From Streptosporangiaceae bacterium (GTDB lineage Bacteria; Actinomycetota; Actinomycetes; Streptosporangiales; Streptosporangiaceae): a stretch of 34,538 nt of DNA. The stretch lies in the NCBI GenBank assembly GCA_030039155.1, contig JASHQL010000034.1, positions 1-34,538 on the forward strand. The letters are read 5' to 3'. Made by a program: the position numbers and the translations under genes. Shown piece by piece: positions 25,793 to 31,075 of this stretch; position 1 is the first letter of the stretch; each line of letters begins with the position of its first letter. Under the pieces are notes generated by a model that was given only the letters and a program-made list of their open reading frames with translations, was not told the origin of the DNA and did not search any database.

Positions 25793-26794
25793 GTGCCGGA
25801 GCCCGAGCCACAGCCGGTGCTCACGCCGCTCACCGCGGCGGCGATGTTCCTGGTGCTGACCATCAACTCCGGCGGCGAGCAGGCGGTGCGCGACCTGCTG
25901 CCGGACCTGGCCGGCCTGCAGCGCTCGGTCGGGTTCCGCAGCCCGACAGGCGACCTGGCCTGCGTCACCAGCATCGGCTCCGGTGCCTGGGACCGGCTGT
26001 TCGGCGGCAGCAAGCCGGCCGGGCTGCACCCGTTCCGCCCGCTCGACGGCTCCCGGCACCGCGCCGTCGGCACCCCAGGCGACCTGCTGCTGCACATCAG
26101 GTCAGCACGGATGGACCTGTGCTTCGAGCTGGCCGCCCTGATCAGCGGCCGGCTTGGCGACGCGGTCAGCGTGGCCGACGAGGTGCACGGCTTCCGTTAC
26201 TTCGACGAGCGTGACCTGCTCGGATTCGTGGATGGCACCGAGAACCCGACGGGCCGCGCCGCCGCGGACGCGGTCACGATCGGCGCCGAGGATCCCGATT
26301 TCCGCGGCGGCAGCTACGTCATCGTGCAGAAGTACCTGCATGACATGGCCGCGTGGAACACGCTGACGACCGAGCAGCAGGAACTGGTGGTCGGCCGGAC
26401 CAAGCTGGCCGACATCGAGCTGCCTGACGAGGTGAAGCCGGCCAACTCGCACGTCGCGCTCAACACCATCGTCGGACCGGCCGGCGAGCAGCGGCAGATC
26501 GTGCGGGACAACATGCCGTTCGGCTCGATCGCCGACGGCGAGTTCGGCACCTACTTCATCGGCTACTCGGCGGCGCCGGAGGTCACCGAGCTGATGCTGC
26601 AGCACATGTTCATCGGCGACCCGCCGGGCAATTACGACAGGATCCTCGACTTCTCCACCGCCGTCACCGGCGGACTGTTCTTCGTTCCCACTGCCGACTT
26701 CCTCGACAGCCCGCCGTCCGGGCCGGCCAAGGCGGCCGCTTCAGCCGACGGGTCGCTGGGTATCGGCAGCCTGAAAGGAGCCGTCACGCCATGA
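25793..26794 (+). CDS. DyP-type heme peroxidase, encapsulin cargo
   Basis: A 333-residue dye-decolorising peroxidase from GTG 25793, with AAGGAGG five bases upstream. It has the family G-x-x-D-G motif in G-F-V-D-G-T-E-N-P (the catalytic Asp), N-S-H-V-A-L-N with the probable heme-ligand His, and Q-I-V-R-D-N-M-P-F-G with the distal Arg. The C-terminal 15 residues D-G-S-L-G-I-G-S-L-K-G-A-V-T-P match the known encapsulin-targeting peptide, reached through a flexible Ala/Pro-rich linker. The stop overlaps the encapsulin start by ATGA. The enzyme should therefore be packaged in the shell and use H2O2 for oxidation. No signal peptide is present. Confidence 0.96.
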   Translation: MPEPEPQPVLTPLTAAAMFLVLTINSGGEQAVRDLLPDLAGLQRSVGFRSPTGDLACVTSIGSGAWDRLFGGSKPAGLHPFRPLDGSRHRAVGTPGDLLLHIRSARMDLCFELAALISGRLGDAVSVADEVHGFRYFDERDLLGFVDGTENPTGRAAADAVTIGAEDPDFRGGSYVIVQKYLHDMAAWNTLTTEQQELVVGRTKLADIELPDEVKPANSHVALNTIVGPAGEQRQIVRDNMPFGSIADGEFGTYFIGYSAAPEVTELMLQHMFIGDPPGNYDRILDFSTAVTGGLFFVPTADFLDSPPSGPAKAAASADGSLGIGSLKGAVTP

Positions 26795-27594
26795 ACAACC
26801 TGCACCGCGAGCTTGCGCCGATCTCGGAGGCGGCCTGGTCGGGCATCGACGCCGAGGCGCGCGAGGCGTTCAGCAGCCACATCGCCGGCCGCCGCGTCGT
26901 CGACGTCACCGGCCCGGACGGGCCGACCCTGGCCGCTGTCGGCACCGGCCACCTGCGCCAGGCCGATCCGACGGGCGACGGCGTCAGCCTGGCGGTGCGG
27001 CTCAGCCAGCCGGTCACCGAGTTGCGGCTGCCGTTCACCGTCAGCCGCTCGGCGGTCGACGACGTGGAGCGAGGCGCGAAGGACACCGACTGGGAGCCGG
27101 TCAGGCAGGCCGCGCGGGTGATGGCCGGCACCGAGGACCGCGCGGTCGCGGCCGGCCTCGAGCCGGCCGGGATCACCGGGATCGTGCCGGGCTCGCCGAA
27201 CCGCGCCGTGCCGCTGCCGGCCGACGCCCGCCAGTACCCGGCGGCGGTCAGCCAGGCGCTCGAGACGCTCCGGCTGACCGGAGTCGGCGGGCCGTACGCG
27301 CTGCTGCTCGGCGCCGAGGCCTACACCAAGCTGGCGGCCGCGGCGGACGACGGGTACCCGGTGGAGAGCAGGCTGGCTACGCTGCTCGGCGGCGCGATCA
27401 TCTGGGCGCCGTCGATGGACGGCGGCCTGGTGCTGTCCGCCAGGGGCGGCGATTTCGAGCTGCACCTCGGCCAGGACCTGTCGATCGGCTACCTGTCACA
27501 CGACGCGCAGGACGTGCAGCTGTACCTGCAGGAGTCGCTGACGTTCCTGGTGCACACGCCGGAGGCGGCGGTCCCGCTGGCCGCGAAGTCTTGA
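26791..27594 (+). CDS. Encapsulin shell protein (family 1, HK97-like fold)
   Basis: A 267-residue shell protein, from ATG 26791, preceded by AAAGGAG nine bases upstream. It begins N-N-L-H-R-E-L-A-P-I-S-E-A-A-W, followed by I-D-A-E-A-R-E, and contains A-G-R-R-V-V-D-V-T-G-P and D-L-S-I-G-Y-L-S-H-D. These are typical of linocin-M18/CFP29-type encapsulins. Proteins of this length usually assemble 60-mers of about 24 nm. The cargo is the DyP peroxidase encoded directly upstream, in the same translationally coupled unit. The native function in actinobacteria is thought to relate to oxidative stress. Confidence 0.96.
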   Translation: MNNLHRELAPISEAAWSGIDAEAREAFSSHIAGRRVVDVTGPDGPTLAAVGTGHLRQADPTGDGVSLAVRLSQPVTELRLPFTVSRSAVDDVERGAKDTDWEPVRQAARVMAGTEDRAVAAGLEPAGITGIVPGSPNRAVPLPADARQYPAAVSQALETLRLTGVGGPYALLLGAEAYTKLAAAADDGYPVESRLATLLGGAIIWAPSMDGGLVLSARGGDFELHLGQDLSIGYLSHDAQDVQLYLQESLTFLVHTPEAAVPLAAKS

Positions 27595-29725: not shown

Positions 29726-30076
29726 TCAGTTCAGATACGCCTGCCAGTCTGGCGGAACGCGGCCCGCTGGGCCAGGCACACCCTGGCCTGCCGGATGTGC
29801 GTGCGGCGGCGCCAGCTCCGGCCCGCCGTCGAACATCTGGTTGGTGTGGAAGTTCCAGAACCAGGTCTCGCCCGGCTCGTAGCTTCTGATCACCGGATGC
29901 CCGGTGGCCGCGAAGTGCGCGGTCGCGTGCTGCGACGGCGAGGTGTCGCAGCAGCCGATGTGCCCGCACTGGGTGCACCTGCGCAGGTGCACCCACCAGC
30001 CCCCGGCGGCCTCGCACTCGACGCAGCCAGGTCCGCTCGGCGGCACCGACGGATCGATGCCAGGCAGCTCAGTCAC
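29726..30076 (-). CDS. Stand-alone UBP-type zinc-finger protein
   Basis: A protein of 116 residues from GTG 30076, chosen because GAGGAG lies seven bases upstream. An open extension to 30121 lacks one. The body is a zf-UBP domain: C-V-E-C, then W-W-V-H-L-R-R-C-T-Q-C-G-H-I-G-C-C-D, H-A-T-A-H-F, G-H-P-V-I-R-S, and E-P-G-E-T-W-F-W. All Cys/His metal positions expected for this domain are present. In eukaryotes the domain binds the ubiquitin C-terminus. Bacterial stand-alone copies are common in actinobacteria and have no established partner. A Pro-rich C-terminal tail ends D-W-Q-A-Y-L-N. Confidence 0.88.
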   Translation of the reverse strand: MTELPGIDPSVPPSGPGCVECEAAGGWWVHLRRCTQCGHIGCCDTSPSQHATAHFAATGHPVIRSYEPGETWFWNFHTNQMFDGGPELAPPHAHPAGQGVPGPAGRVPPDWQAYLN

Positions 30077-30169
30077 GTGTCTGCTCCTCTCCCTGACACG
30101 GGCAAAGCAGGATGAGCCCAATCGTAGGATCCAGCTAGGAACGACGGCACGGCGGCCGGAGGAACGATC

Positions 30170-30673: not shown

Positions 30674-30687
30674 CGCCCGCGCCACTC

Positions 30688-30738
30688 CGCGTAGCCCCCG
30701 CGTAGCCCCGCGTAGCCCCGCGTAACCCGCGTAGCCCC
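30688..30738 (+). repeat. Short tandem array of a CGCGTAGCCC unit
   Basis: Five consecutive units starting at 30688, 30699, 30709, 30719 and 30728 share CGCGTAGCCC or a near variant. Unit lengths are 11, 10, 10 and 9 bp, then a final copy. The array begins just after the stop of the membrane-protein gene. It resembles a slippage-type microsatellite. Confidence 0.8.
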
Positions 30739-30760: not shown

Positions 30761-30829
30761 CATTTCATCGATTCTGGTCGTTACGTAAGCGACAAAACTC
30801 ACATTCAGACCACCAGAATCGATGAAATG
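30761..30829. repeat. AT-rich 69-bp element with perfect 18-bp terminal inverted repeats
   Basis: The left arm CATTTCATCGATTCTGGT (30761-30778) and right arm ACCAGAATCGATGAAATG (30812-30829) are exact inverted repeats. The 33-bp centre includes the palindrome TTACGTAA (30781-30788). GC content is 29 of 69, far below the surrounding DNA. There is no coding capacity, no T tract and no clear target-site duplication. It could be a MITE-like or REP-like element, a terminator-like hairpin or a protein-binding site. Confidence 0.85.
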
Positions 30830-31075
30830 ACGGGATCGGGGCTCGTCGGCGGCGAGTGGCCCAGGTGGGTCAGTGCTGGTGCGGGAACCCTTATGTGGCC
30901 GGGAATCCGGCTTGCCGGGTCATAGCCCATCTGGACTATTTAGTAGTAATCCCCTGTGCTGCGTGTTATGTGCCGTCATGATGTTCGGTGCGTGAAATGT
31001 AAGGCCCTGGGCACGCGCGCGGTCAGCGCAGGCGCGCAAGCGCGGCACGGGCGCGGAGACGGCGTTAGGTGGGTT

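Follow-up and report, generated by a model that had tools for sequence, protein, structure and literature searches.

A dispersed family of 69-bp paired half-sites with REPIN-like architecture in Streptosporangiaceae

The 69-bp repeat element at 30761–30829 (+ strand) of the window, by which we mean the whole analysed stretch of 34,538 nucleotides from a Streptosporangiaceae bacterium, is one of at least 21 gap-free copies dispersed through its genome (G000), and relatives of it occur in sister species. The reading we favour, to which we would give not quite an even chance, is that these are lineage-specific REPIN-like, non-coding and non-autonomous DNA elements with half-sites read by a trans-acting protein. 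The working unit would be two inverted 18-bp half-sites held at a rigid distance and recognised as DNA: a protein encoded elsewhere in the genome would bind both half-sites and, either itself or through recombination that it triggers, would copy or convert the elements into inter-gene spacers, where insertions would be tolerated mostly just behind genes, and such copying or conversion would keep the copies of one genome alike.

The window copy reads CATTTCATCGATTCTGGT, 33 bp and then ACCAGAATCGATGAAATG, that is, a left half-site (30761–30778, + strand; genome consensus CATTTCAYCGATTCTGGT), an asymmetric interior of fixed length (30779–30811, + strand) and a right half-site that is the inverted copy of the left (30812–30829, − strand). 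Re-reading and a repeat finder, by which the arms reach 21 nt if one mismatch is included, bear out the boundaries and the perfect 18-bp inverted arms described in an earlier note made from the letters alone, and its remarks on ATCGAT in each arm (30767–30772 and 30818–30823) and on a GC content of about 42% in GC-rich DNA (0.420 for the element versus 0.708 for the window) hold as well. The small palindrome TTACGTAA, which that note had placed at the centre, in fact lies at 30781–30788 (no strand assigned), adjoining the left arm and off the element centre at 30795; it is retained in most G000 copies and not in other species. Across the G000 copies the 13-bp core of the half-site, TTTCAYCGATTCT, is near-invariant except at its Y, and the interior has conserved positions at G20, A27, A36, A43 and T44 (element numbering). 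The window copy is placed 88 bp behind a frame of 167 aa that has no Pfam match, and in front of the gene for a Phage_lysozyme2 protein; no promoter-like site was found near it. Five near-tandem copies of CCCCGCGTAGCCC (30685–30737) end some 24 bp ahead of the element. Elsewhere the window holds an encapsulin shell protein (26791–27594; Linocin_M18, E 2.5e-87) and, on the minus strand at 29726–30121, a small protein bearing a zinc finger of the zf-UBP type (E 2.2e-12), a domain more familiar from ubiquitin systems.

BLAST of G000, a fragmented draft of 4.8 Mb in 599 contigs that is 88% complete, returned 21 full copies at 76–100% identity, and a single-arm pattern search recovered the same arm pairs, its reversed control matching nowhere. 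All 21 are exactly 69 bp long and align without gaps: summed over the copies, 227 substitutions from the consensus stand against 0 indels, an outcome with a probability near 1e-5 if one indel per 20 substitutions is assumed. The distance from the consensus averages 10.8 bases of 69 and amounts per site to 0.071 in the arms and 0.250, or 3.5 times as much, in the interior. The earlier note had taken the perfect arms as a sign of recent origin; for the window copy this is rejected, because perfect arms are found in only 3 of the 21 copies, arms vary independently and the window copy itself is 7 bases away from the consensus. Beyond the 69 bp, identity is at background save for a weak CGT/ACG extension, with CGTC at 9 of the 42 outer ends. 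The motif CATGATCA is found 7–8 bp outside, always on the same side, in eight copies (L002, L004, L005, L008, L012, L014, L016 and L018); missing at the window copy and present at 8/21 only, it is rejected as a part of every element. CAAGATC/GATCTTG occur outside other G000 copies, and palindromes of a similar kind, GTGATCATG, are scattered through the relA spacers of G000 and of G106 (L182), a member of another genus.

With genes called as long frames scored by codon-position GC rather than by a dedicated gene finder, all G000 copies are placed in intergenic DNA or at its edge, two of them between divergent genes and 15 of the 21 no more than about 120 bp beyond a stop codon. This position behind genes, which is that of REPs in PMC3733652, counts for the favoured reading. 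Orientation relative to the neighbouring gene shows no significant bias (about 10 same, 5 opposite, by manual count), and no transposase was seen by eye among the nearest neighbours. These include genes that we take, from reading of the sequence, to be rpsO, rpsL, relA, rplY, pntB and mshA, such reading being the source of every neighbour name that lacks a Pfam or Rfam match. Rfam matches show a tmRNA gene after one copy and, close to a different copy, an Actino-pnp RNA. A regulon was considered and rejected, as the neighbours are unrelated ordinary genes with no common function seen. All carrier genomes are fragmented drafts, which puts genome-wide spacing, orientation and parent elements beyond their reach.

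For other genomes the pattern TTTCATCGATTC-N41-GAATCGATGAAA was run with 3 mismatches against 343 genomes of Streptosporangiaceae, of which it matched three. Pattern matches in genome contigs outside the family differ from it in length and have interiors unrelated to its own, and we regard them as due to chance or as hairpins of other kinds. When a covariance model made from 49 copies was run on 30 genomes, it found 21 loci in G000, about 40 in G105 (MAG JOPF022, Streptosporangiaceae), about 15 in G101, 7–11 in G099, 1–3 in G098, single weak matches in G103, G100, G097 and G090, and none in the remaining 21; the counts elsewhere are lower bounds, since most of the copies behind the model come from two of the genomes, and the overlapping or near-duplicate contig pairs L097/L099 and L103/L107 of G105 were each counted once. 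Close relatives thus differ strongly, copy number within one genus running from ~40 through ~15, 7–11 and 1–3 to 0, the last even in one genome of the genus that is 98% complete, and several members of the sister genus carry a single copy or none. Nearly all related elements measure 68–70 bp, with one 71-bp match in G105. An origin from phage or plasmid is rejected, since searches of 50,697 phage records and 72,556 plasmid records gave no match and the pattern was not found in viral contigs. Some G105 copies (L103, L105, L106, L101, L089, L104 and others) form a subfamily that shows one-sided conservation beyond the palindrome, with GAAATRCRGTATTTA...TATATACCGGTCACGCTCTGT ahead of it and the blocks GTGACCGTTTAGTCCTGATTGCC and GACGACACGCAACGTGACTCCC behind, reaching some 300 bp in the best pair; a second G105 subfamily is flanked by the near-direct repeats CTGTCCTGATATACGAGAT / CTGTCCGACTTATACGGAT. 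In G084, of a different genus, L175 carries about 611–670 bp behind relA a long spaced palindrome, TCCATGATCGATGTACGTTTA...TAAACGTACATCGATCAAGGA, that is either unrelated to the 69-bp family or very distant from it.

Each species has its own arm consensus (CATTTCAYCGATTCTGGT in G000, CATTTCAYCGAYTCSGTC in G105, CATTTCACCGATNNTGCA in G101 and CTYTCCACCGATTCCGCG in G099), and arms pair at about 15.5 of 18 positions within a species and worse with the arms of another. Inside G000 left and right arms change independently. Their pairing is 90.7% as observed and 90.9% with shuffled arms, no covariation between arms is seen among the 21 copies, and at pair 8/62 the combinations T-A (8), C-A (8), T-G (3) and C-G (2) occur as under independence; since observed pairing equals shuffled pairing, each half-site is conserved independently of the other in this genome. 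Between species, in contrast, the two arms change together: over all genomes 86.5% of positions pair, against 85.3% after shuffling of right arms within species and 73.1% after shuffling across species. As within-species shuffles pair slightly less than observed (maximum 86.6% of 300), a weak within-species association remains, which probably comes from the G105 subfamilies. Among genomes with several copies, the nearest relative of a copy lies in the same genome in 76 of 76 cases, also when the interior alone is compared.

Because half-sites and spacing are conserved and pairing within G000 is unprotected, we prefer recognition of double-stranded DNA by a protein at both half-sites over an RNA hairpin, and the steep copy-number differences between close species, together with the genome-specific interiors, point to spread or conversion and hence to a REPIN-like system. 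Both the trans-acting protein and the role of conversion or spread, rather than selection alone, in keeping the copies alike are what we infer from these patterns. Against this reading count the lack of any transposase or recombinase tied to the elements, the lack of target-site duplications and the sister-genus members with no or one copy; the main reason for our lower certainty is that some spacers are occupied in more than one species. Flanks match on both sides at relA/DUF349 (G000–G105), L121–L256 (G000–G101), L278–L257 (G105–G101), L156–L263 (G105–G099) and L277–L270 (G105–G103); the G101 locus L258 has one side in common with each of L156 and L263, and L281–L254, as well as the rpsL region, match on one side only. 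The spacers with the element in two or three species, among them relA–DUF349 and a pur locus, compare with an expectation of about 0.5 in total under random placement (some 4000 spacers per genome assumed), and their copies resemble one another no more than other pairs drawn from two species do. For the relA spacer, where the position is shared and the sequence is not, we reject plain vertical inheritance of a single copy; this spacer occurs without the palindrome at 13–61 bp in three genus members and at 405–415 bp in two others.

Shared spacers agree with inherited sites no less well than with new insertions. The foremost alternative, unlikely yet of real weight, is a set of stationary, inherited binding sites for a host protein (a nucleoid organiser, a segregation or a global regulator) with a specificity that shifts between species, every site of a genome following the change. 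Such sites would have a fixed length without indels, independent half-sites within G000, matched changes that keep the palindrome across species, and the same spacers in two or three species with copies as different as random pairs and matching their own genome, all of which is observed. However, about 40 to 0 copies within one genus, with 0 in a 98% complete genome, would be odd for a core function; the neighbouring genes share no function, the copies lie mostly behind genes and not in front of them, and the interior is genome-specific too (76/76), which goes further than binding by a protein would require. The shared spacers may be either old sites rewritten in concert or the outcome of repeated strikes on the same spacers. 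The former idea, in full, is that dispersed paired half-sites undergo genome-wide concerted evolution, positions being preserved from species to species as the copies of a genome are all rewritten towards a new palindrome by a non-HUH enzyme that would recognise and convert the sites; we hold this to be rather unlikely, and if true it would amount to a novel type of system that homogenises or spreads sequence, distinct from RAYT/REPIN.

An RNA element, transcribed as a hairpin that serves as terminator, mRNA 3′-end protector or small RNA, appears improbable. Its appeal lies in the strong stem predicted for the window copy (−32.6 kcal/mol, z = −7.05), in the 15 copies close downstream of a stop codon and in the upkeep of the palindrome between species, but among the 21 G000 copies covariation is absent, on which ground a hairpin under compensatory evolution is rejected there, and on average 2.3 of the 18 arm pairs are not Watson–Crick. 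Nor are intrinsic-terminator features (GC-rich stem, short loop, T tract) found: the loop is 33 nt, there is no T tract at the window copy, as the earlier note had seen, or in the family, and the sole terminator-like match nearby, at 30915–30934, is outside the element. No Rfam family matches the elements at gathering score, a mir-1784 hairpin at 27.9 bits versus a required 98 being taken as chance. Poorer still are the prospects of a cut-and-paste transposon remnant, that is, a MITE whose terminal inverted repeats a DDE transposase would have cut. The small size and dispersal of the unit would suit it, as would terminal inverted repeats that are perfect or nearly so and copy numbers particular to each lineage, but no target-site duplication is present at lengths of 2–9 or at any boundary shift tested, for the window copy, as already remarked in the earlier note, or for the whole family, and no clean pair of filled and empty sites was obtained. 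Moreover, no element of greater length sharing these ends was found, arms in the 88% complete G000 assembly occurring only as 69-bp pairs bar three isolated single matches with 3 mismatches; the length is rigid even in diverged copies, and in a relative some copies run into wider repeats outside the arms. A chance or one-off palindrome is of negligible probability, given 21 copies, an arm pattern (≤3 mismatches) found at 2 places in the window and at 0 in 100 dinucleotide shuffles, and a reversed control pattern with 0 matches in each of 343 genomes.

We finally compared the family with known repeat systems. The earlier note had proposed a mobile element, a REP-like repeat or a protein-binding site, and as a class this stands, because the genome search it suggested yielded 21 dispersed intergenic copies with conserved arms, and relatives in sister species; membership of the classical tagged REP/RAYT group finds no support, with no GTAG tag within 15 nt at any of the 42 G000 ends and no Y1 transposase (Y1_Tnp, PF01797) in the 15 genomes searched, several of them 72–90% complete, while 5 of 14 control genomes were positive. 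RAYT/IS200 is rejected on this ground; the assemblies being incomplete, a RAYT gene may have been missed in one of them, which is unlikely for all. MITEs are likewise short, non-coding and dispersed with inverted ends, but the present family shows no target duplication, has a rigid length and yielded no parent element in the 88% complete assembly. TIRtron TIR repeats also come as dispersed families of inverted-repeat units, and their TIRYT enzymes are Y1/HUH transposases (PMC3733652), of which none was found in the 15 genomes. A further comparison is with the CGTC-tagged REPs, which form 8–9 bp stems with 4–5 nt loops and have no dedicated transposase, in a paper with no mention of actinobacteria in its text (PMC3733652). 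Shared with these are the lack of a dedicated transposase, the inverted pairs and the CGTC at 9/42 outer ends, but that is a minority of ends, and neither half has such a stem and loop.

Architecture and size are those of REPINs, which in P. fluorescens are GI pairs of inverted conserved 16-mers with 71 bp between first residues (PMC3116915): both have inverted conserved ends of ~16–18 bp at a fixed distance, a variable spacer, intergenic position, genome-specific sequence and many copies. Here, however, copies number tens rather than hundreds, the interior has a direction and is conserved in part, no RAYT was found, and the half-site lacks the GTAG tag and is not itself a REP hairpin, folding at 0.0 kcal/mol with outer CGTC and −1.5 with the inner flank. 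Compensatory changes, reported as common in REPINs (PMC3116915), are not seen among the G000 copies. Since architecture and size match but tag, inner hairpin and transposase fail, we name the elements REPIN-like and not REPIN; no description of the 69-bp family was found in the open-access literature. REPIN-like repeats are explained by RAYT transposases, whereas the present actinobacterial family has the shape of REPINs although its (incomplete) carrier genomes yielded no Y1/HUH enzyme. Its copies supply a probe sequence, natural variants and relatives with ~40, 15, 7, 1 and 0 copies for seeking the protein.
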